From: Nitrosomonas nitrosa
GTDB lineage: Bacteria; Pseudomonadota; Gammaproteobacteria; Burkholderiales; Nitrosomonadaceae
Direction of reading: 5' to 3'
Assembly: GCF_003051105.1 (NCBI RefSeq)
Contig: NZ_QAOO01000013.1
Span: 1-64,000 of the forward strand
DNA length: 64,000 bases
Each line of letters opens with the position of its first letter. Positions within the stretch are counted from its first letter, which is position 1. Under the pieces are notes generated by a model. It worked only from the letters and a program-made list of their open reading frames with translations. It was not told the origin of the DNA and made no database searches. The translations under genes and the position numbers were made by a program. Positions 281-12,177 of this stretch are shown here, in pieces.

Positions 281-2374
281 ATGAATTATTTAACCGATCT
301 CGCTAATGATGAGGAAATCGACACCTACGATCGAGCATTGCAGGATTACTTTGCGCAGCGTATGGATGTCGATCGTTTTACCGCTACCCGTTTACAAATG
401 GGGATTTATGGTCAGCGCCAGGAAGGTGTCAACATGGTGCGTATCAAGATTCCGGGTGGACGGTTGACCCCCATGCAATTGAATGCGATTGCTGACGTGC
501 TGGAGAACTATGTGCCCCATGGGGAGGCGCATATCACCACTCGCCAAGATATCCAATTGCACTATGTGCCCTTGGCGGATACGCCAGCGGTGATGCGCCA
601 CCTAGCGAAGGGGGGATTAACGACGCGCGAAGCGTGCGGAAATACGATACGGAACGTTACGGCTTGCCCTTTGACGGGTGTTTGTCCGCGTGAACATACC
701 GATATCAGTGAACATCTCAACGGCGTTGTTAAGCATTTTTTGCGCAAGCCGCTGAATCAATTGATGCCGCGTAAATTCAAGATCAGTTTTTCTGGCTGTG
801 AATCGGATTGTGCACAAGGAATGATCCATGACTTGGGCGTAGTCGCGGTAAGACAAGGGGCGCAGTTCGGCTTTAAAGTACTGGTAGGAGGTGGGCTTGG
901 GCATAAGCCTCACGAAGCGATCACAGTTGAATCTTTCATCGAAGAAAAAGATCTGCTGTTGGTGATAGAGGCTGTGCTCACCCTGCATAACAAATACTCG
1001 GATCGGACAAAACGCGCGAAATCGCGTATCAAGTTTTTAGTCGATAAATTTGGTGTGGAAGGGTTCATCGAAAAATATCGGGAAGAACTCGCTCGCGTCA
1101 AGGAAGCATTGGCCACTCAGGATTATCCCAAAGGCATTTGGACGGGCGGAGTGGATAGCGAAGTGCCGGGTCCAGGCGCGCCCCGTGCACTGTTTGCACA
1201 AAAGCAAACTGGATTGTTTGTTTTGCCCATCAGTGTGAAGCTTGGACAATTAACTGTTGAGCAAATACGTGGTATTGCAGGGATATTGAAGCAATATCAT
1301 TTGCAGGAAATTCGAACGACACAAGATCAAAATCTGATGCTGGTTGATGTGCCGCAAGCGCATGTGGCGGCTATCCAGTCAACCTTGTCTGGCCTCGGTC
1401 TGGGCTTGCCAAAAGCGGGTGATAATGTTGTGGCATGCCCCGGAACTTCTACTTGTCGTTTAGGCATCACTTCCAGTCCGACGCTCGGGGGTAAATTATC
1501 GGGTGGAAACGATGATTTGCGTATCCGTGTTTCGGGTTGCCATAATGGCTGTGCTCAGCCAGAAAGTGGGGATATTGGAATTTACGGTGAAGGCAAGCGT
1601 ATGTACGGTAAGCTGGTACCTCATTATCAGATGTATTTTGGTGGTAATGGCATGGCGAATGGTGGTTTGGCTTTCAAAGGTCCATCCGTGCCAAGTGCGC
1701 GTGTTGAAGTCGCTGTGGAGAGGGTAAGATCAGCCTATGCCACAAATCGTGAAGCGGATGAAACATTTTTTAATTGGACACGGCGTGTAGGGCAGGGATA
1801 TTTCGCTGAATTGTTGGCTGACATCGTCGAAGTCAAGCAAGAGGATCTGCAATCGGTATTACGCGATCATGGCCAGGGTGATGATTTCAAAGTGTTGCAG
1901 TTAGGTGGGGGAGAGTGTGCAGGTGCGAAACAATTGCAAATCGGCACGGCTTTCTTTGATGCTGCAAACGAACGTAATTATCGTAACGCGCTCAAATTTC
2001 AGCGTAAATTCGAGGACTCTGTGAAATGTGCGGAGGAGATCGCTCGTTTGATTGGTCAAGGATTGAGCCAATTAGTAGGTGGCCAGAAATGCGAAAGTTT
2101 GCAAGAGCAAGCGGAAGAATTGCAACGTGTCTTGCCAACTAAACCGAATTTGTCCATCACATTGGCAAAGCTTGCTCAAGAATTTGCACGTCCCGCCCAT
2201 GAGTTGAATGATGCCGTATTGACAGAGTGGTATGCCAAATTGGATGCATGGACTGTTGAAGTAGCTGAGTTTTGTACTAATTTTAACAGTCAACTTGATT
2301 TGACCGGCTCACTGCCTCAGGGCATGGTCGAACCGGTGCAATATCAGAAAGTATCGCAGTCGGCCACGGCCTAG
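281..2374 (+). CDS. cysI: Siroheme sulfite (nitrite) reductase with two full cysteine quartets
   Basis: This 697-residue protein is predicted to reduce sulfite to sulfide with six electrons, using siroheme coupled to a [4Fe-4S] cluster, in cytoplasmic sulfate assimilation. The duplicated architecture is clear: ferredoxin-like half-domains near residues 37-107 and 304-370, each followed by a siroheme/4Fe-4S domain. Cluster cysteines are visible in both repeats, C129/C135/C173/C177 and C386/C392/C420/C424; E. coli CysI keeps them only in the second half. Arginines R54, R88 and R345 are candidates for anion binding. Residues about 560-690 form an extra helical C-terminal region, possibly HEPN-like. 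It is first in a tight run with cysH, cysD and cysN. A nitrite reductase role cannot be excluded from sequence alone. The RBS GGAGAGAAG precedes the ATG. Confidence 0.88.
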   Translation: MNYLTDLANDEEIDTYDRALQDYFAQRMDVDRFTATRLQMGIYGQRQEGVNMVRIKIPGGRLTPMQLNAIADVLENYVPHGEAHITTRQDIQLHYVPLADTPAVMRHLAKGGLTTREACGNTIRNVTACPLTGVCPREHTDISEHLNGVVKHFLRKPLNQLMPRKFKISFSGCESDCAQGMIHDLGVVAVRQGAQFGFKVLVGGGLGHKPHEAITVESFIEEKDLLLVIEAVLTLHNKYSDRTKRAKSRIKFLVDKFGVEGFIEKYREELARVKEALATQDYPKGIWTGGVDSEVPGPGAPRALFAQKQTGLFVLPISVKLGQLTVEQIRGIAGILKQYHLQEIRTTQDQNLMLVDVPQAHVAAIQSTLSGLGLGLPKAGDNVVACPGTSTCRLGITSSPTLGGKLSGGNDDLRIRVSGCHNGCAQPESGDIGIYGEGKRMYGKLVPHYQMYFGGNGMANGGLAFKGPSVPSARVEVAVERVRSAYATNREADETFFNWTRRVGQGYFAELLADIVEVKQEDLQSVLRDHGQGDDFKVLQLGGGECAGAKQLQIGTAFFDAANERNYRNALKFQRKFEDSVKCAEEIARLIGQGLSQLVGGQKCESLQEQAEELQRVLPTKPNLSITLAKLAQEFARPAHELNDAVLTEWYAKLDAWTVEVAEFCTNFNSQLDLTGSLPQGMVEPVQYQKVSQSATA

Positions 2375-2402
2375 TAGAAGTTTTGATGTTAATGGGAAAT
2401 AG

Positions 2403-3107
2403 ATGAATCAATTGGATATAACGCCGAAGGTTGAACAGCTCCACGACTTGATGAAGCTGATTGAACGGGATTATATGCCCGCTGTATTGGCCAATAGCCT
2501 GGGTGCTGAGGATATGGTGTTGACCGACTTGATTGCACGGTACTATCCCGCTATAGCTATGTTTACGCTGGATACGGGCCGCTTGCCACAGGAAACCTAT
2601 GATCTGATGCAAACAGTGAGAGATCGCTATGGTGTGGACATTCATGTCTATTTCCCTGATGCGGCTGCGATTGAAGATTATGTCGCTCAGAACGGCCCCA
2701 ATGGGTTTTATCAAAGTGTCGAGCTGCGTAAACGCTGCTGCTTTATTCGCAAAGTAGAGCCACTTCGCCGTGCATTGGCTGGGAAACGAGCCTGGATCAC
2801 GGGAATGCGGCGTGAGCAGGCGGTAACACGTGACAGTTTGACGATATCCTCGTTTGATGTTGAAAATAATCTGCAGAAATTTAATCCACTTTGTGAATGG
2901 AGCAATGCCGAAGTGTGGGCATATCTCAAGCAGCATGATGTACCTTATAACAAATTGCATGATCGCTTCTATCCGAGTATTGGTTGCGCGCCTTGTACCC
3001 GCGCAGTTACCCCTGGGGAAGATGTCCGGTCAGGGCGCTGGTGGTGGGAGAATCCTGAATCCAAGGAATGTGGCTTGCATATAGGCAAAGTTGCCTCAAT
3101 AAAATAA
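2403..3107 (+). CDS. cysH: APS reductase (thioredoxin-dependent, [4Fe-4S] type)
   Basis: This enzyme reduces adenosine 5'-phosphosulfate to sulfite and AMP in sulfate assimilation. At 234 residues it has the cysteine pattern of bacterial APS-type enzymes: C112-C113 and C195-x2-C198 to bind a [4Fe-4S] cluster. Enteric PAPS-only reductases lack these cysteines. The catalytic cysteine is C223 in the C-terminal KECGLH motif. The gene starts 28 bases after the sulfite reductase stop and lies 31 bases before cysD, so co-transcription is likely. APS specificity is supported by the absence of a CysC (APS kinase) domain on the neighbouring CysN. Confidence 0.93.
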   Translation: MNQLDITPKVEQLHDLMKLIERDYMPAVLANSLGAEDMVLTDLIARYYPAIAMFTLDTGRLPQETYDLMQTVRDRYGVDIHVYFPDAAAIEDYVAQNGPNGFYQSVELRKRCCFIRKVEPLRRALAGKRAWITGMRREQAVTRDSLTISSFDVENNLQKFNPLCEWSNAEVWAYLKQHDVPYNKLHDRFYPSIGCAPCTRAVTPGEDVRSGRWWWENPESKECGLHIGKVASIK

Positions 3108-3138
3108 AACATGTTGAATTTATTAGAAGTATAGAAGA

Positions 3139-4044
3139 ATGAGCCATCGAACTTTTACACACTTGGATGCATTGGAAAGCGAAGCGATACACATCATGCG
3201 GGAAGTGGCAGCTGAATGTACTAATCCCGCATTATTGTTCTCCGGAGGGAAAGATTCCATCGTATTGTTGCGATTGGCAGAAAAGGCCTTTCGACCCGGT
3301 CGCTTCCCTTTTCCGCTGCTCCATATTGATACAGAGCATAATTTTCCCGAAGTCATCGAATTTAGAAATCGTCGTGCTGAAGAGCTTGGTGAACGCCTGA
3401 TAGTCCGTAGCATGGAAGATTCCATCAAGAAAGGCAGGGTCGTGCTGCGCTCTGAAAATCAAAGCCGCAATCCCTTCCAGTCAATCACTTTGCTGGATGC
3501 AATTGCCGAATTCCAATTCGATGCTTGTATCGGCGGCGCGCGTCGTGATGAGGAAAAAGCACGCGCCAAGGAGCGCATCTTTTCTTTTCGCGACGAATTT
3601 GGACAATGGGACCCGAAAAATCAGCGTCCCGAGCTTTGGAGTATTTATAACACGCGAACCCACCCTGGAGAGAACATTCGTGTATTTCCTATCAGTAATT
3701 GGACTGAATTAGACGTATGGGAATATATCGATCGCGAACAGCTAGAAGTACCTTCGATTTATTTTGCACATTGGCGGGAGGTGATACCTCGTGAGACGGG
3801 CTTACTGCCGGTATCTCATTTGGTGCAACCCAAAGAAGGTGAACGTGTAGAGAAAATGATGGTACGTTTCCGGACTGTTGGTGATATGAGTTGTACTTGC
3901 CCAGTTGCTTCTCAAGCAAAGGATGTGAGTGAAATTATTGCTGAAACCGCGATGACGCGCATTACTGAGCGTGGAGCTACACGTATGGATGATCAAACAT
4001 CAGATGCTTCGATGGAATTACGCAAAAAAGAAGGGTATTTCTGA
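3139..4044 (+). CDS. cysD: Sulfate adenylyltransferase small subunit
   Basis: This subunit carries out the adenylation step, ATP plus sulfate to APS and pyrophosphate, as a heterodimer with the GTPase CysN. The PP-loop motif SGGKDS is at residues 35-40, and the family-typical NPFQSITLLDA and SIYNTRTHPGENIRVFPISNWTE regions are intact. At 301 residues it is of normal length. It lies between cysH and cysN; the 70-base gap to cysN is short enough for one transcript. Confidence 0.95.
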   Translation: MSHRTFTHLDALESEAIHIMREVAAECTNPALLFSGGKDSIVLLRLAEKAFRPGRFPFPLLHIDTEHNFPEVIEFRNRRAEELGERLIVRSMEDSIKKGRVVLRSENQSRNPFQSITLLDAIAEFQFDACIGGARRDEEKARAKERIFSFRDEFGQWDPKNQRPELWSIYNTRTHPGENIRVFPISNWTELDVWEYIDREQLEVPSIYFAHWREVIPRETGLLPVSHLVQPKEGERVEKMMVRFRTVGDMSCTCPVASQAKDVSEIIAETAMTRITERGATRMDDQTSDASMELRKKEGYF

Positions 4045-4114
4045 TAAGTTTATCACTAGAGAGATAAGCGCCGTTTCTTATATAAAAGCATCAATTGTAA
4101 AGGTTATTGATTAA

Positions 4115-5386
4115 ATGTCAGTAGTTGAAAATGTAGGACTCGATCGTGCCGAGCTGTTGCGGTTTATTGCAGCAGGAAGTGTCGACGATGGAAAAAGTAC
4201 GTTGATTGGACGCTTATTGCATGACTCGAAATCGATTTTTGAAGATCAGTTAAGTTCTATTGCGCGTACCTCAAACAAGCGCGGATTGCAGGTCGTCGAT
4301 CTTTCTTTATTGACCGATGGCTTGCAAGCTGAGCGTGAGCAAGGGATTACCATTGATGTGGCCTATCGCTATTTTGCCACGCCCAAACGCAAATTTATCA
4401 TTGCCGATACGCCTGGGCATGAACAATATACGCGGAATATGGTTACGGGCGCATCCACCGCTAATTTAGCGATCATCTTGATCGATGCACGCAAAGGGGT
4501 GCTTACCCAGTCCCGCCGACACGCTTATCTAGCCAGTTTGGTCGGTATCCCCCATTTGGTCGTGGCAGTCAACAAGATGGATTTAGTTGATTATTCGCGT
4601 GAAGTTTTTACGCAAATATGTAACGATTTTGCCGCCTTCGCAAAGGGACTCCATTTAACCAATATCGCGTATATTCCGATGTCTGCTCTGAATGGGGATA
4701 TGGTGGTGGAAAGAGGTGATCACCTTGCCTGGTATGAAGGCAGGACATTGCTGGATTTGTTGGAAAATATCGATATCGAACATGATATCAATACAGAAGA
4801 TTTTCGCTTCCCCGTTCAGTGGGTCTGCCGTCCTCAAACTGATGAATTACATGATTTCCGTGGTTATATGGGACGGATCGAGTCAGGTTCAATCCGTGTG
4901 GGCGATCCAGTAACGGTGCTGCCTTCCGGTCTATCCTCGCACATCAAGGAAATCCTGCTATTTAAAGATACCTATGAGGAAGCATTCGCCCCCCAATCGG
5001 TCACATTGACTATTGAGGATCATTTGGATATTTCCCGTGGGGATATGTTGGTAAAAGCTGGTGAGCAGCCCCAAATCAAAAAGGAATTTGCTGCGATACT
5101 TTGCTGGCTATCTGAACAGCCGCTTGATCCAAGACGCAAGTATATCATCAAGCATACAACGCGCATGGTCAAAGGATTGGTCAGCCAGATCGACTATCGC
5201 GTCGATGTCAACACGCTCAACCATGAATCGACGGATGCTTTGAAAATGAATGATATTGCTCGGGTAGTGATGAAGGTACTGCAACCCATTGTAATGGATG
5301 ACTATAGGCGGAATCGTGCTACCGGTAGCTTCATTCTCATCGATGAAACGAGTAACAATACCGTTGCGGCTGGGATGATTTGCTAG
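4115..5386 (+). CDS. cysN: Sulfate adenylyltransferase large subunit (GTPase)
   Basis: This GTPase activates the CysD adenylyltransferase. GTP-binding motifs are complete: G1 GSVDDGKS at residues 21-28, G3 DTPGHEQ at 98-104 and G4 NKMD at 153-156, followed by EF-Tu-like domains II and III. The chain stops at 423 residues and has no C-terminal APS-kinase domain, unlike the CysNC fusions found in many proteobacteria. With no separate cysC in the window, sulfate assimilation probably proceeds directly from APS. Start ATG at 4115. Confidence 0.95.
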   Translation: MSVVENVGLDRAELLRFIAAGSVDDGKSTLIGRLLHDSKSIFEDQLSSIARTSNKRGLQVVDLSLLTDGLQAEREQGITIDVAYRYFATPKRKFIIADTPGHEQYTRNMVTGASTANLAIILIDARKGVLTQSRRHAYLASLVGIPHLVVAVNKMDLVDYSREVFTQICNDFAAFAKGLHLTNIAYIPMSALNGDMVVERGDHLAWYEGRTLLDLLENIDIEHDINTEDFRFPVQWVCRPQTDELHDFRGYMGRIESGSIRVGDPVTVLPSGLSSHIKEILLFKDTYEEAFAPQSVTLTIEDHLDISRGDMLVKAGEQPQIKKEFAAILCWLSEQPLDPRRKYIIKHTTRMVKGLVSQIDYRVDVNTLNHESTDALKMNDIARVVMKVLQPIVMDDYRRNRATGSFILIDETSNNTVAAGMIC

Positions 5387-5539: not shown

Positions 5540-8500
5540 ATGACGAATTCAGCATCAATGCTTAGCAAACCATCGCTAGAAAGCGTAACCCCTGATCTTA
5601 AGTTTGGTATCGCGTTTGAGGATTTGTATTGCCGTGATGGTTTGGTTAAGCTGGATCAAGCTTTTCTTGATTTTTTGCAAACAGGGGATGCAGGGTTGCG
5701 TGCTCGCTTGGATCATGCGCGTTTGCATCCTGATGGATTGGCGCCTAAAGATGAATCTGCTTTTCTGATCGACCTGGCGCCTTGGTTAGAAGATTTTATC
5801 GCACAGTTATTTAGTATAGAAAAAGAAGTACGTGCTTTAGCGGCACGCCACCATGAACTTGCGCCGCTTTATTTTTGCAAGCGGCAATTTGTGCAGCGCC
5901 GCGCAAAAACGAAAGTAAGCGAAGAGGTATTACAAACAATCGACGGCTTTGCGTTGGAAAAGAGGCTTGCAGCCGAATTTGGCGAACCATTTTCGGAGTT
6001 GGTGTTTGCAAAGAACGTATCACGATGGTTAGAGGATGAAGCCAGTAATGCGACACGCTTGAATGATGCATTACATTATGCAGCATGGGCACTACGCACC
6101 AGCGAAGGGCAAAAGCATACTCAGCAAGGTGTGCTATTTAAATCTCCTGCAAAACTTGATTATTTGCATTTACTGTCCCTGTCGACCGATGAGCAGGCGG
6201 GGTATACCGTGCACCGACTCGAGCATCTGCGTCATCGGGAAGGGTTTTCATTGACAGATAAGGGTACCGATTTGGTGGGGGCGCTCGATGAAACCAATTA
6301 TTGTATTTGGTGCCATGAGCAAGGCAAGGATTCCTGTTCGAAGGGGTATATCGTCAAGTCAAAGAACGTAGACGAACCGCCCTCTTTCAAGCGAAGTGAA
6401 CTCGGTGCCTTGTTGGCCGGCTGCCCTCTGGAAGAGCGCATCTCTGAATTTCATAAGCTCAAATCACATGGTGTGGCAGTTGGCAGCTTAGCGATGATCG
6501 TGTTGGATAATCCTATGTGTGCTGGCACAGGGCATCGTATTTGTAACGATTGTATGAAATCGTGCATATACCAGAAGCAGGATCCAGTCGATATCCCGCA
6601 AGCTGAAACCCGTACACTCAAAGACGTACTCGAGTTGCCATGGGGGTTCGAAATATATAGTTTGTTGACGCGCTGGAATCCACTCGATTTACGCAGGCCT
6701 TTGCCTAAGCCTTCGACAGGCAAAAAAGTATTGGTGGTAGGCATGGGACCTGCTGGCTATACCCTCGCACATCATTTGATGAATGACGGTCATACCGTGG
6801 TGGGAATCGATGGTCTCAAAATTGAACCGCTGCCAGCAGAAATTTCGGGAGTCGGCTTGCATGGAGAACGTATTCCTTTTAACGCGATTCGTCATACCGA
6901 TATGCTGCGCGTTGATTTGAACGAACGTATTCCAGGCGGGTTCGGCGGTGTCGCTGAATATGGTATTACCGTACGCTGGGATAAAAATTTTCTTCAATTG
7001 ATCCGCCTTTTGCTGGAGCGGAGACCCGAGTTCGCGCTTTATGGCGGAGTACGTTTCGGTGGAACGCTGACGGTCGATGATGCACTCGCGCTGGGTTTTG
7101 ACCACATCGCACTGGCTGCGGGTGCCGGTCGTCCGACAGTGCTGGAATTGCCGAACGGGCTCGCGCGTGGCGTTCGCGCTGCTTCAGATTTCTTGATGGC
7201 GCTCCAATTATCCGGTGCAGCACAAGCCGATTCGATTGCCAATATGCAGTTACGCTTACCCGTGGTCGTGATTGGTGGCGGGTTGACTGCGATCGATACC
7301 GCAACGGAGGCTTTAGCCTATTATCCAGTACAGGTCGAGAAATTCCTGCAGCGTTACGAAGTACTTGTTTCAGAGCAGGGTGAGGCGACTGTACGTAATA
7401 GCTGGGACGATGAAGAGCGGGAAATCGCTGAAGAATTCCTGTCGCATGCGCGGGCAATACGTGCAGAGCGCGCACAAGCGGCCCATGAGGGACGCCCGCC
7501 CGATATCCTGAAACTATTACAGTCATGGGGGGGGGCAACTATTGCATACCGCAAGCGATTGATCGATAGTCCTTCTTATACCTTGAACCATGAAGAAGTC
7601 GAGAAAGCATTAGAGGAAGGCATCTGGTTTGCTGAAGGGCTTACACCGCTGCGGGTGGACGTTGATCAATGGGAGCATGCACAATCGATCAGATTCTCTG
7701 TCCAGTCAATGGATGAAGCGGGGAAATGGCAAAAAATTAGGGAAGTCGATTTGCCTGCGCGTGCGATTCTGGTGGCGGCAGGAACTCAGCCGAACACCGT
7801 GCTCGCTCGAGAAGATGAAAAATATTTCAAGTTGGATGGACGATATTTTGCTGCCTGTGATGATCAAGGCAACCCGGTAAGCTTGTCGAAAGGCAATCCT
7901 AAACCGGAGTCAATTGCCGTCTTGCTGAGCCAGTGTGATGATGGGCGTTTTATCAGTTTCTTCGGCGATTTGCATCCGTCCTATTCGGGGAATGTAGTCA
8001 AAGCTATGGCAAGTGCCAAGCAAGGGTATCCCGTGGTGAGCCGCGTGCTGGCGCAAGTTGCGCCGGCTTCAACGCAGTTGAATGCGCAATTTTTTGCTGA
8101 AATGAATCATCAATTGAGACCAACCGTACATAAAGTCGAGCGATTGACCCCTAATATCATCGAAGTGGTCGTACGTGCGCCTATGGCTGCGAAACATTTT
8201 CATCCAGGGCAGTTTTATCGTTTCCAGAATTTTATGACGTTGTCGCCCAAGGTTGGCGGTACCCGGCTTGCGATGGAAGGTATCGCTTTAACTGGCGCAT
8301 CAGTAGACAATGCCAATGGCCATGTGTCACTGATCGCGTTGGAAATGGGAGGGTCGGCAAACTTATGCACTTTGCTCAAACCAGGAGAGCCCGTGGTGCT
8401 GATGGGGCCAACTGGGACACCTACTGAGATTTTGCACGATGAGACGATCGTCCTGGTTGGCGGTGGACTTGGCAATGCGGTCTTGTTCTCAATCGGCGCA

Positions 8501-9076
8501 GCAGCCCGAGCGGCTGGATGCCGTGTTTTATATTTTGCAGGTTACAAAAAATTAGTTGATCGTTATAAAGTCGCTGAAATTGAAGCGGCAGCCGATACGG
8601 TCATCTGGTGTTGTGATGAAGCGCCAGGGTTTGAGCCATCGAGACCCGGGGATTTTAGTTTCGTCGGTAATATCGTGCAGGCGATGGTGGCCTATGGTAG
8701 TGGAGCGTTGGGTGTCCAACCGATACCGCTAGCAGAAGCGGATCGTATCATTGCCATTGGATCGGACAGAATGATGGCGGCGGTGGGTTATGCGCGACAT
8801 CACCAGCTTCAACCTTTTCTAAAGGAGAACCACTTTGCCATTGGTTCGATCAACTCACCGATGCAGTGCATGATGAAGGAAATTTGTGCCCAGTGTTTGC
8901 AGCCGCATAAGGATCCAGAAACAGGTGAAGTCACCTATATTTTCTCTTGCTTCAATCAGGATCAGCCACTCGACTGGGTCGATTTTGGTAGCTTGTCATC
9001 GCGCTTGAGACAAAATAGCACGCAGGAAAAATTGACTAGTCAATGGCTCAACCGTTGCTTAAAAAATTTAAATTGA
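5540..9076 (+). CDS. Nfn-like fused Fe-S flavoprotein, putative electron donor of the sulfite reductase
   Basis: This 1178-residue cytoplasmic protein has three parts. Residues 1-250 are unassigned. From 255 to about 840 it resembles the GltD/NfnL type: cysteines C255, C258, C266, C295, C327, C335, C338 and C342 could hold two [4Fe-4S] clusters. They are followed by an FAD motif GMGPAG (401-406) and a second dinucleotide motif GGGLTAID (579-586). From about 860 on it resembles PyrK/NfnS: an FNR-like FAD domain with GGGLGNA (974-980) and a C-terminal [2Fe-2S] set C1110, C1116, C1119, C1137. The pair matches the two subunits of NADH-dependent ferredoxin:NADP oxidoreductase joined in one chain. 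Its position directly after cysN, and the lack of cysJ, suggest it feeds electrons to the sulfite reductase; that role is inference. A 153-base gap upstream leaves room for a separate promoter. Confidence 0.75.
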   Translation: MTNSASMLSKPSLESVTPDLKFGIAFEDLYCRDGLVKLDQAFLDFLQTGDAGLRARLDHARLHPDGLAPKDESAFLIDLAPWLEDFIAQLFSIEKEVRALAARHHELAPLYFCKRQFVQRRAKTKVSEEVLQTIDGFALEKRLAAEFGEPFSELVFAKNVSRWLEDEASNATRLNDALHYAAWALRTSEGQKHTQQGVLFKSPAKLDYLHLLSLSTDEQAGYTVHRLEHLRHREGFSLTDKGTDLVGALDETNYCIWCHEQGKDSCSKGYIVKSKNVDEPPSFKRSELGALLAGCPLEERISEFHKLKSHGVAVGSLAMIVLDNPMCAGTGHRICNDCMKSCIYQKQDPVDIPQAETRTLKDVLELPWGFEIYSLLTRWNPLDLRRPLPKPSTGKKVLVVGMGPAGYTLAHHLMNDGHTVVGIDGLKIEPLPAEISGVGLHGERIPFNAIRHTDMLRVDLNERIPGGFGGVAEYGITVRWDKNFLQLIRLLLERRPEFALYGGVRFGGTLTVDDALALGFDHIALAAGAGRPTVLELPNGLARGVRAASDFLMALQLSGAAQADSIANMQLRLPVVVIGGGLTAIDTATEALAYYPVQVEKFLQRYEVLVSEQGEATVRNSWDDEEREIAEEFLSHARAIRAERAQAAHEGRPPDILKLLQSWGGATIAYRKRLIDSPSYTLNHEEVEKALEEGIWFAEGLTPLRVDVDQWEHAQSIRFSVQSMDEAGKWQKIREVDLPARAILVAAGTQPNTVLAREDEKYFKLDGRYFAACDDQGNPVSLSKGNPKPESIAVLLSQCDDGRFISFFGDLHPSYSGNVVKAMASAKQGYPVVSRVLAQVAPASTQLNAQFFAEMNHQLRPTVHKVERLTPNIIEVVVRAPMAAKHFHPGQFYRFQNFMTLSPKVGGTRLAMEGIALTGASVDNANGHVSLIALEMGGSANLCTLLKPGEPVVLMGPTGTPTEILHDETIVLVGGGLGNAVLFSIGAAARAAGCRVLYFAGYKKLVDRYKVAEIEAAADTVIWCCDEAPGFEPSRPGDFSFVGNIVQAMVAYGSGALGVQPIPLAEADRIIAIGSDRMMAAVGYARHHQLQPFLKENHFAIGSINSPMQCMMKEICAQCLQPHKDPETGEVTYIFSCFNQDQPLDWVDFGSLSSRLRQNSTQEKLTSQWLNRCLKNLN

Positions 9077-9288: not shown

Positions 9289-10410
9289 ATGCACATAGGC
9301 ATACCTGCAGAAATTTATGCGGGAGAAACACGTGTAGCAGCTACACCGGAAACGGTTAAAAAATATACTGCCAAGGGTTTTCATACTGTTCTGGTCCAAT
9401 CTGGTGCAGGTGCTGGTGCAAGTATTCCCGATGCTGCGTATCAAGAAGCCGGCGCAGTGATCGTTGACGACGTTTCGCAATTATACAGTCAGTCACAAGT
9501 TGTCCTTAAAGTGCGTGGCCCGGCAGCAAACGAGCTTGTCATGTTACGCAAAGATGCAGTTCTGATTGGTTTACTGTCGCCTCATCAAGCAGAAGGGATC
9601 GAAGCACTGGCAAAACAGGGTGTTACTGCATTTGCCATGGAAAAATTACCGCGTATATCGCGTGCGCAAAGCATGGATGTCTTGTCCTCTCAAGCAAATA
9701 TTGGAGGATATAAGGCGGTTATTATGGCCGCACATGTTTATCAGAAATTTTTTCCGATGTTGATGACGGCCGCTGGCACGGTGAAAGCTGCGCGAGTATT
9801 GGTGCTGGGTGCAGGTGTCGCTGGGTTGCAGGCAATTGCAACAGCTAAAAGGCTGGGCGCAGTGATTGAAGCGTTTGATGTACGTCCAGCAGTTAAAGAA
9901 CAGGTTGAGAGTCTCGGTGCTAAATTTGTCGAGGTTCCGCTTACTGAAGAAGAAAAAGCTAAGGCTGAAACTGCTGGAGGTTATGCGGCTGAAATGTCGG
10001 ATGACTACAAACGCCGGCAAGGTGAGTTGATTCATGAAAGAGCCGTTGCTGCAGATATTATTATTTCAACAGCATTGATACCTGGACGCCCTGCGCCTGT
10101 TTTGATCAAGGAAGAGACGGTTCAAGCAATGAAACCAGGTTCGGTAATCGTGGATATGGCCGTCGAAGCAGGTGGAAACTGTCCTTTGTCGGAATTGAAT
10201 AAGACGGTAGTTAAACATGGTGTCCATCTCATCGGTATTGCAAATTTGCCCGGTTTGGTTGCTGCCGATGCGAGTGCGCTGTATGCGCGTAATCTTATGA
10301 ATTTCCTTAATTTAATGCTCGATGCAAATAATGGGGAACTCAACATTAACCGTGAAGACGAGATCATAGCGGGAACACTCATTTGTATGGGTGGTGAAGT
10401 GGTCAAGTAA
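9289..10410 (+). CDS. pntAA: NAD(P) transhydrogenase alpha subunit, part 1 (NAD(H)-binding domain I)
   Basis: This is the soluble NAD(H)-binding domain of the proton-translocating transhydrogenase, which uses the proton motive force to make NADPH from NADH. At 373 residues it carries SRAQSMDVLSSQANI (124-138), the nucleotide-binding GAGVAGLQA (174-182) and the closing DMAVEAGGNCPLSE region. It lacks the membrane part, which is the next gene, so the alpha subunit is split as in Rhodospirillum. AAGGGAG stands before the ATG. Confidence 0.95.
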   Translation: MHIGIPAEIYAGETRVAATPETVKKYTAKGFHTVLVQSGAGAGASIPDAAYQEAGAVIVDDVSQLYSQSQVVLKVRGPAANELVMLRKDAVLIGLLSPHQAEGIEALAKQGVTAFAMEKLPRISRAQSMDVLSSQANIGGYKAVIMAAHVYQKFFPMLMTAAGTVKAARVLVLGAGVAGLQAIATAKRLGAVIEAFDVRPAVKEQVESLGAKFVEVPLTEEEKAKAETAGGYAAEMSDDYKRRQGELIHERAVAADIIISTALIPGRPAPVLIKEETVQAMKPGSVIVDMAVEAGGNCPLSELNKTVVKHGVHLIGIANLPGLVAADASALYARNLMNFLNLMLDANNGELNINREDEIIAGTLICMGGEVVK

Positions 10411-10797: not shown

Positions 10798-12177
10798 ATG
10801 TCTGCTGATTTAATTGCGCTGGCCTATCTGGTTGCAGCGGTTTTTTTCATTCTGGCACTGAAAGGCCTAAGTTCACCTCTTTCCGCCCGACGTGGCAACG
10901 TGTTTGGGATGGTAGGGATGGCGATTGCTGTGGGTACCACGTTGACGATTACCGAGAATTGGGCATTAATTTTGGGTTGTATTGCGATCGGTGGAATCAT
11001 CGGTTCAATTGTGGCGCAGCGCGTGCAAATGACCGCTATGCCCGAGCTGGTTGCTTTCATGCACTCACTGGTCGGTTTAGCTGCCGTATTCATTGCAATC
11101 GCGGCTGTCAACAATCCTGTGTCATTCGGCTTGCCGGAGATATTACCGACGGGGAGTAAGTTGGAATTGTTTCTGGGTACGTTTATCGGTGCGATGACGT
11201 GGTCAGGTTCCGTCATCGCATTTCTAAAGCTTTCCGGTCGCATGAGCGGCGCTCCGGTCGTGTTTTCTGGCCAGCACATGGTCAATCTGCTCCTCGCGCT
11301 TGTCATGATCGGTTTTGGCTTATGGTTTTTCTTTAGCGAAACCACCAACTGGACCGCATTTATTGCAATGACGGCGATTGCATTCTTGCTCGGTTTTCTG
11401 ATCATTATCCCAATCGGCGGTGCGGATATGCCTGTTGTGATATCCATGCTGAATTCTTATTCGGGCTGGGCTGCAGCGGGTATTGGATTCTCTCTTGGTA
11501 ATCCGATGTTGATCATTGCGGGTTCTCTCGTGGGTAGCTCAGGTGCGATTTTGTCTTACATCATGTGTAAGGCCATGAACCGTCCTTTTCTTTCTGTGAT
11601 ACTGGGTGGCTTCGGAAGCGATGGTGGAAGCCAGACAGTTGGGGATGGAACACAAAAATCATACCGTAGCGGTAGCGCGGATGATGCAGCCTTCCTGATG
11701 AGCAATGCAGATAGCGTTATCATTGTTCCTGGATATGGTCTAGCCGTTGCACGCGCACAACACGCTGTCAATGAGCTTGCAGAAGTACTCCATCAAAGGG
11801 GGGTCAACGTGCGCTTTGCCATTCATCCTGTAGCGGGTCGTATGCCTGGCCATATGAACGTTTTGCTGGCAGAAGCGGAGATACCCTATGAACAAGTCCT
11901 GGAAATGGAAGAAATAAACAGTGATTTTTCCAATACCGATGTCGTGCTGGTATTAGGCGCAAACGATGTCGTCAATCCGGCAGCAAACGTACCTGGCAGC
12001 CCTATTTATGGCATGCCAATTCTCGATGCACATAAGGCACGGACTGTTATCGTCGTCAAGCGAAGCATGGCAGCAGGGTATGCTGGTCTTGACAATGATT
12101 TGTTCTATATGGAAAAGACCATGATGGTGTTTGGAGATGCCAAGAAAGTGGTAGAAGATATGGTTAAAGCTGTGTGA
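10798..12177 (+). CDS. pntB: NAD(P) transhydrogenase beta subunit
   Basis: This 459-residue subunit combines the remaining membrane helices (residues 1-265) with the NADP(H)-binding domain III. H89 in FMHSLVGLAA corresponds to the conserved proton-channel histidine of E. coli PntB. Domain III shows PGYGLAVARAQ (311-321), HPVAGRMPGHMNVLLAEA (343-360) and GANDVVNPAA (387-396). Together with pntAA and pntAB it forms a complete enzyme supplying NADPH for biosynthesis. A strong terminator follows 39 bases after the stop. Confidence 0.96.
   Translation: MSADLIALAYLVAAVFFILALKGLSSPLSARRGNVFGMVGMAIAVGTTLTITENWALILGCIAIGGIIGSIVAQRVQMTAMPELVAFMHSLVGLAAVFIAIAAVNNPVSFGLPEILPTGSKLELFLGTFIGAMTWSGSVIAFLKLSGRMSGAPVVFSGQHMVNLLLALVMIGFGLWFFFSETTNWTAFIAMTAIAFLLGFLIIIPIGGADMPVVISMLNSYSGWAAAGIGFSLGNPMLIIAGSLVGSSGAILSYIMCKAMNRPFLSVILGGFGSDGGSQTVGDGTQKSYRSGSADDAAFLMSNADSVIIVPGYGLAVARAQHAVNELAEVLHQRGVNVRFAIHPVAGRMPGHMNVLLAEAEIPYEQVLEMEEINSDFSNTDVVLVLGANDVVNPAANVPGSPIYGMPILDAHKARTVIVVKRSMAAGYAGLDNDLFYMEKTMMVFGDAKKVVEDMVKAV

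Follow-up and report, generated by a model that had tools for sequence, protein, structure and literature searches.

The sulfate-assimilation locus

The window analysed here is a 64,000-nucleotide (nt) stretch of contig NZ_QAOO01000013.1 from the ammonia oxidiser Nitrosomonas nitrosa (Nitrosomonadaceae). It carries a sulfate-assimilation (cys) locus, one gene of which encodes P0001, a single-chain flavoprotein resembling the NfnSL enzymes. An initial annotation, made from the sequence alone, had placed this gene inside the locus, next after cysN, and open reading frames (ORFs) together with family models confirm the placement. The sequence covered starts at contig base 1, and the region upstream of the sulfite reductase (SiR) lies outside the data. 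APS denotes adenosine 5'-phosphosulfate. The genes are arranged as follows:

281..2374, + strand: SiR of the ~700-residue type ('type B'); Pfam PF01077 (9.1e-48) and PF03460 (5.7e-36)
1754..2371, + strand: C-terminal extension of this SiR, with a conserved ECA motif
2403..3107, + strand: cysH, of the APS-reductase type; TIGR02055 above cut-off
3139..4044, + strand: cysD, sulfate adenylyltransferase small subunit; profile matches
4115..5386, + strand: cysN, sulfate adenylyltransferase large subunit; profile matches
5540..9076, + strand: single-chain Nfn-like flavoprotein P0001, 1178 residues, ATG start
9289..10410, + strand: pntAA, proton-translocating transhydrogenase alpha subunit, part 1; PF01262 and PF05222
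10489..10797, + strand: ORF that we take to be pntAB from its position; order conserved in 12 of 100 loci
10798..12177, + strand: ORF that we take to be pntB, likewise from position; order conserved in the same proportion (12 of 100)

The SiR is built of two NIR_SIR/ferredoxin-like halves followed by the C-terminal extension. In NCBIfam it stays under the curated cut-off for each of the 11 listed families, of which a NirA-like one scores best, and the extension gave no Pfam match in any of the 14 members scanned. Promoter-like sites in the window are not in excess (6, against a shuffled mean of 6.1), and terminator-like sites are slightly above the shuffled level (7, against a mean of 4.3 with a standard deviation of 1.9). 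On the + strand, neither kind of site occurs in the 153-nt gap before the Nfn-like gene or in the 212-nt gap after it.

Architecture of the Nfn-like protein

The GltD/NfnL and PyrK/NfnS modules agree across family models, PDB sequence matches and predicted fold, and the single-chain Nfn-like architecture read by the initial annotation is upheld by all three. Iron-sulfur clusters and modules binding flavin adenine dinucleotide (FAD) and nicotinamide adenine dinucleotide (phosphate) (NAD(P)) are distributed along the chain as follows:

5597..6163, + strand: all-helical N-terminal domain, residues 20-208; PF27156 label on homologues
6134..8056, + strand: NfnL/GltD-type module (residues 199-839) for FAD and NAD(P) binding
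6302..6607, + strand: iron-sulfur region with C255, C258, C266, C295, C335, C338, C342 and E356, each present in 55 of 55 sequences
7283..7525, + strand: helical stretch (residues 582-662) that comes after the second dinucleotide motif (GGGLTAID) and before the YRKR strand in the modelled secondary structure
8117..9073, + strand: NfnS/PyrK-type module (residues 860-1178) for FAD/NAD(P) and a [2Fe-2S] cluster
8867-8950, + strand: C1110, C1116, C1119 and C1137 of the predicted [2Fe-2S] site, invariant in 55 of 55 sequences

The N-terminus, which the initial annotation had found to match nothing recognisable, is indeed unusual: it forms a conserved all-helical domain (predicted local distance difference test score, pLDDT, 94.0; predicted template modelling score, pTM, 0.70) for which no PDB match was found over residues 20-208. 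Among its best 120 short homologues, PF27156 is the sole Pfam label in 117 and is accompanied by PF14691 in three. Eight cysteines had been counted in the first iron-sulfur region; seven of them are invariant in the 55 sequences, and the eighth, C327, is a cysteine in 17. These seven residues and E356, which aligns with the glutamate ligand E126 of Pyrococcus NfnL, are the predicted ligands of two [4Fe-4S] clusters. The NfnL-like part shares 24% identity with 5jfc_L, and residues 582-662 are skipped by profile alignments to NfnL. The C-terminal module is matched by sequence to 5jca_S, 4ylf_A and 1ep3_B in the PDB, and its predicted fold reaches a template modelling (TM) score of 0.83 by target against 5jca_S. 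Its four conserved cysteines suffice for an all-cysteine cluster; the cluster region alone matched no PDB chain by sequence. A flavodoxin domain (PF00258) gave no match in P0001 at E <= 1, and a Pfam scan found no thioredoxin-like domain.

Family and distribution

The best family model of P0001 is PRK06567 (NF005128), with 802.2 bits in three stretches, the best of which covers residues 20-736 and includes the N-terminal domain. The curated cut-off of this model, 1072 bits, is unreached by P0001 and is reached in 0 of 397 genomes of the phylum. At least 7,999 candidate proteins were matched and all passed. The other 119 of the best 120 homologues share 76-90% identity with P0001 over 98-100% of its length; names on these 120 are generic where present (e.g. 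FAD-dependent oxidoreductase), and the closest named homologues among the matches listed, at 88% identity, come from Nitrosomonas communis and Nitrosomonas sp. Nm58. The gene was found in 59 of 61 Nitrosomonadaceae genomes, and in 50 of the 51 of good quality; the exceptions are G033 (51% complete) and G016 (92%). Given 119 close full-length matches and this near-universal presence in the family, the ORF is not a chance one. Across the phylum a strong match, i.e. above 300 bits, was obtained in 18 of the 397 genomes, the window genome G000 included, and 33 further genomes with partial matches (E <= 0.001, under 27 bits) were dropped. Named loci belong to Alpha- and Betaproteobacteria, Acidobacteriota and Planctomycetota; these 80 loci are the best 80 of 566 ranked by likeness to the L058 protein and are therefore no even sample. 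Among open-licence papers, no literature was found on the PRK06567 family or on the names attached to P0001.

Linkage to cys and pnt genes

The gene-neighbourhood tie of this family to sulfate assimilation is real and occurs in separate lineages. A locus was called cys-linked when cysN, or a SiR with or without other cys genes, lay up to 6 kb upstream of the Nfn-like gene and on its strand. L147, whose SiR is downstream on the other strand, was accordingly scored unlinked, and L132 and L136 show no cysN or cysD under the ORF choice used. In L057 and L119 other ORFs separate cysN from the Nfn-like gene (gaps of 3958 and 2178 nt). Those of L057 (8006-11176), which belongs to the genus of the window, encode a hybrid histidine kinase (PAS, HisKA, receiver and Hpt domains) and a receiver-EAL protein.

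Among the 100 loci, the recurrent neighbours are cysN or cysNC (17), cysD (16), SiR (15, including one that lies downstream and in the opposite orientation) and cysH (14), followed by pntAA, pntAB and pntB (12 each); the next neighbour clusters reach 9 loci each and are lineage-bound. Linkage was seen in 12 of the 58 loci with at least 4 kb of upstream sequence, ten of these 12 being Nitrosomonadaceae. Outside this family it was seen in 2 of 48 such loci, and also in L071 and L077, whose upstream sequence is shorter; it could be hidden in the 22 of 80 loci with less than 4 kb upstream. The cys tie stands in three separate groups of the tree described below, and most loci outside the Nitrosomonadaceae are not cys-linked.

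In a FastTree tree built from 100 homologues, 22 rows are cys-linked, and this state requires 3 changes, which may be gains or losses, against a shuffled mean of 20.0, and the same number is forced by the starred branches; the long branches L052, L056 and L066 are of unsure placement. The three linked groups are the Nitrosomonadaceae (15 rows with the window), a set of five loci (L053, L058, L059, L071 and L077) and the pair L072 and L133. Their operons differ in make-up: the first has cysN, the second has cysNC including APS kinase (the kinase was checked in L053), and the third has only a SiR. Between cysNC and the Nfn-like gene, the second group shows gaps of 2, 2, -4, 3 and 772 nt. The operon of L053 reads SiR, a siroheme-synthase-like gene, cysH, cysD, cysNC and the Nfn-like gene, and no CysJ match was found in the genomes that L053, L058 and L059 come from (G123, G430 and G360, respectively). 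In the third group a SiR of the window's type, of 722 or 744 residues, lies next upstream on the same strand, with gaps of 121 nt in L072 and 702 nt in L133, the latter holding a possible ORF on the other strand. No other evidence for a sulfur role is as strong as this linkage in three groups, which had no part in the argument of the initial annotation. Downstream of the Nfn-like gene, pntAA-AB-B are present in the window, in Candidatus Nitrotoga (L104) and in 11 of the 14 Nitrosomonadaceae loci fetched.

Sulfite reductase types and CysJ

The initial annotation reported the classical donor CysJ as missing, which is true of the locus only. In the same genome, contig C2 (L051:7447-10634) encodes a 486-residue CysJ-like diflavin protein directly followed by a 560-residue CysI. 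Of the FAD_binding_1 profile, this short CysJ covers just the final quarter. Its best 120 matches measure 479-512 residues, the named ones including Nitrosomonas Nm33 and Nm34 and Alphaproteobacteria, and the idea that it is a broken leftover was rejected on this shared length.

Four of the 61 Nitrosomonadaceae genomes (G000, G007, G011 and G031) contain a CysJ-like flavodoxin match at E < 1e-29. Read from open-frame length only, the SiR is a protein of 580-594 residues in 17 genomes, a protein of ~700 residues or fragments of one in 41, the window included, and the CysI of CysJI alone in three. In these three (G007, G011 and G031), where CysI is the sole NIR_SIR protein, the Nfn-like gene is retained. 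CysJI divergently adjoins cysH-cysD-cysN, the Nfn-like gene and pntAA-AB-B in G007 and G011; in G031 it lies ~0.9 Mb off, and the Nfn-like gene still follows cysH-cysD-cysN. Between G007 and G011 the nonsynonymous (pN) and synonymous (pS) differences are 0.087 and 0.726 for the Nfn-like gene, similar to the 0.094 and 0.693 of cysN. The Nfn-like gene is clearly under purifying selection, i.e. its protein is constrained. Retention under constraint in genomes with CysJI only points to a role beyond the ferredoxin-type SiR, unless CysI is served as well. By coordinates, a SiR lies within ~9 kb on the same contig in 55 of the 59 gene-bearing family genomes, this being the CysI of CysJI in G007 and G011.

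The SiR types differ in their companions. In the cys-linked Nitrosomonadaceae loci compared, a relative of DUF934 was found only beside the ~580-residue SiR (L057, at 2070-4357, L117, L119, L132 and L136), and loci with the ~700-residue SiR carry the extension instead (L121, L124, L125, L135, L143 and L144). The extension has no recognisable homology to DUF934 and no recognisable relationship to the N-terminal domain of P0001. DUF934 is described as an accessory required for sulfite reductase in Pseudomonas stutzeri (PMC5554334), and in L158 (577-1896) it is fused to a reductase domain for APS or its 3'-phosphorylated form, PAPS (PF06073 and PF01507). Longer SiRs of 780-797 residues combine the ECA extension with a further C-terminal segment (L151:5730-8072, L152:5978-8335, L153:5772-8117, L154:6137-8530 and L155:6617-9007). 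In L151 this segment is a TusA sulfurtransferase domain (PF01206, 6.5e-18), and the other four align with it. L151 (8036-10726) and L152 (3298-5946) also have, between SiR and cysH or cysD, one ORF that unites a radical S-adenosylmethionine-like part with a sodium:sulfate symporter part (PF04055 and PF00939).

Co-occurrence was also followed through the phylum. A NIR_SIR match is present in 16 of 18 gene-bearing genomes (the 17 strong-match genomes other than G000, and the relative G045) and was found in neither G348 nor G450, which are small (1.3-1.4 Mb). CysJ was counted by TIGR01931 at E <= 1e-60 in 5 of 18 genomes with the gene and 118 of 379 without (Fisher p = 1.0), a rough count as this model also catches other, longer flavoproteins (frames of 1,000-1,500 residues). 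With no anti-correlation in the 397 genomes, the family was rejected as a replacement of CysJ across the phylum. The SiR extension is present in 6 of the 18 gene-bearing genomes and in 41 of the 379 that have no strong match (Fisher p = 0.012). This association is not counted as evidence that the extension marks dependence on P0001, since a single family, f47, contributes 38 of the 47 positive genomes, of which 5 carry the gene and 33 lack it.

Proposed function and alternative explanations

P0001 is best read as a single-chain Nfn-like NAD(P)H oxidoreductase that would act as a broad supplier of low-potential electrons, with SiR as an important but not sole client, a reading to which we give about even chances. 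Its breadth is suggested by genomes that carry the gene without a SiR match or together with a SiR that comes with a donor. Hydride from NADPH would most likely enter at the NfnL/GltD-type FAD, and, judging from the modules, single electrons would leave through the two [4Fe-4S] clusters towards a low-potential acceptor, probably a ferredoxin or directly the ferredoxin-type siroheme SiR. The C-terminal FAD/[2Fe-2S] module could be the NAD(H) site or an internal second branch. In the nitrifiers of the Nitrosomonadaceae, the neighbouring PntAB and the proton motive force may keep the NADPH/NADP+ ratio high and thereby feed P0001. CysJI reduces sulfite on NADPH alone, so that bifurcation is not required for sulfite.

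Several observations weigh against this broad-supplier reading. Ferredoxin-type SiRs exist without the gene, the type-B extension being present in the 41 genomes mentioned above. Likeness of fold to GltD, an enzyme that is not known to reduce ferredoxin, ties with likeness to NfnL, and a glutamate near the place of E356 is also found in GltD 7mfm_I, which makes E356 no marker of bifurcation. Synonymous sites are near saturation in the comparison of G007 with G011. The pnt genes are not downstream in L057, L068 and L132 (3 of the 14 fetched Nitrosomonadaceae loci), and most homologous loci outside this family are beside neither cys nor pnt genes.

The alternative that survives best is a general Nfn-type transhydrogenase balancing NADPH, NADH and ferredoxin, for which the position between cysN and pntAA would reflect redox housekeeping and not sulfur. 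It draws on the Nfn modules, the pnt neighbours in 12 of 100 loci and the spread of mostly unlinked homologues over Alpha- and Betaproteobacteria, Acidobacteriota and Planctomycetota. It sits poorly with cys linkage in three groups, two of which have no pnt genes in the fetched stretches, and with cysNC almost abutting the gene at four of the five loci in one group, and we hold it unlikely.

Less probable still is the dedicated supply favoured by the initial annotation, in which P0001 would replace CysJ and feed nothing but the ferredoxin-type SiR of the cys cluster. The proximity of a SiR in 55 of 59 genomes, the three linked tree groups and the same-strand SiR next upstream in L072 and L133 all speak for it. 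The word 'dedicated' is left unsupported by the CysJI of the window's own genome, by purifying selection on the gene where CysJI is the sole SiR (it is kept in G007, G011 and G031), by its presence in G348 and G450 without any NIR_SIR match, by the unlinked loci outside the Nitrosomonadaceae (all but 2 of the 48 with at least 4 kb upstream), by the lack of CysJ anti-correlation (5/18 versus 118/379) and by type-B SiRs being common without the gene.

A more ambitious proposal, which we regard as improbable, treats cysHDN, the Nfn-like gene and pntAA-AB-B of ammonia oxidisers as one energetic unit. The electron source of these organisms is far too oxidising for biosynthesis; PntAB driven by the proton motive force would hold the NADPH/NADP+ ratio high, and P0001 would bifurcate the electrons of NADPH to NADH and a low-potential branch, its helical N-terminal domain docking clients, SiR first. 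If true, bifurcation would take place in an obligate aerobe, where it would be coupled to assimilation and a transhydrogenase would meet its cost. Finally, supply of another step of the pathway (the APS reductase CysH, its thiol partner, or iron-sulfur repair of these enzymes) would fit cysH, cysD and cysN remaining beside the gene in the three genomes whose sole SiR is CysJI, divergently adjacent or elsewhere, but is very improbable, as the CysH of the window matches the thioredoxin-dependent type and P0001 has no detected thioredoxin-like domain.

Many bacteria have a ferredoxin-type SiR and no CysJ, with a reductant that is mostly unassigned, and the open-licence papers searched gave no answer on the SiR electron donor of the Nitrosomonadaceae. 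The Nfn-like gene, near-universal in this family and found repeatedly in the cys clusters of separate lineages, is a testable candidate for that donor and could assign a function to a large orphan family (at least 7,999 proteins). If P0001 bifurcates, it would be an aerobic Nfn; among aerobes, a review gives a single known carrier of an Nfn homologue (PMC6405883).

Comparison with known systems

Like NfnSL, P0001 is predicted to have the NfnL and NfnS folds, two [4Fe-4S] clusters, one [2Fe-2S] cluster and two FAD, and it has a glutamate at the place of NfnL E126. It differs in being one chain, in the order L then S, and in adding the helical N-terminal domain and the helical stretch 582-662. 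A further possible difference is the four invariant cysteines at its predicted [2Fe-2S] site, whereas the NfnS cluster is reported with a non-cysteine (aspartate) ligand (PMC9503767).

The statement of the initial annotation that known Nfn enzymes are heterodimers is incomplete, fused single-chain homologues having been described (PMC6405883; AadN, PMC9973337). Among these, the fused 'Pattern C' of Alpha- and Gammaproteobacteria and Actinobacteria is uncharacterised and resembles P0001 in that its one chain carries the FAD/NAD/[2Fe-2S] part C-terminally (PMC6405883). P0001 shares with Pattern C and PRK12779 the order NfnL (199-839) then NfnS (~860-1178). It is likened to Pattern C by description, and its score against PRK12779, 79.5 bits, is far under the cut-off of 1519. 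AadN of Rhodopseudomonas palustris, likewise an Nfn homologue fused into one chain, is proposed to supply a single demanding enzyme, benzoyl-CoA reductase (PMC9973337), and thus offers a precedent for such a service. It differs in its fusion, given there as 'Pattern B', and the excerpted text of that source mentions no helical N-terminal domain for AadN.

PRK06567, annotated as a 'putative bifunctional glutamate synthase subunit beta/2-polyprenylphenol hydroxylase', is the best model for P0001 and bears a name without tested function. With CysJ, P0001 may share the role of an NADPH-side donor to siroheme SiR; it differs by its lack of a detected flavodoxin domain, and it coexists with CysJI in the window genome. 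Overall, the fold and module order of P0001 are of known kinds, and its helical N-terminal domain, four C-terminal cysteines and recurrent tie to cys genes make of it a variant without described function.

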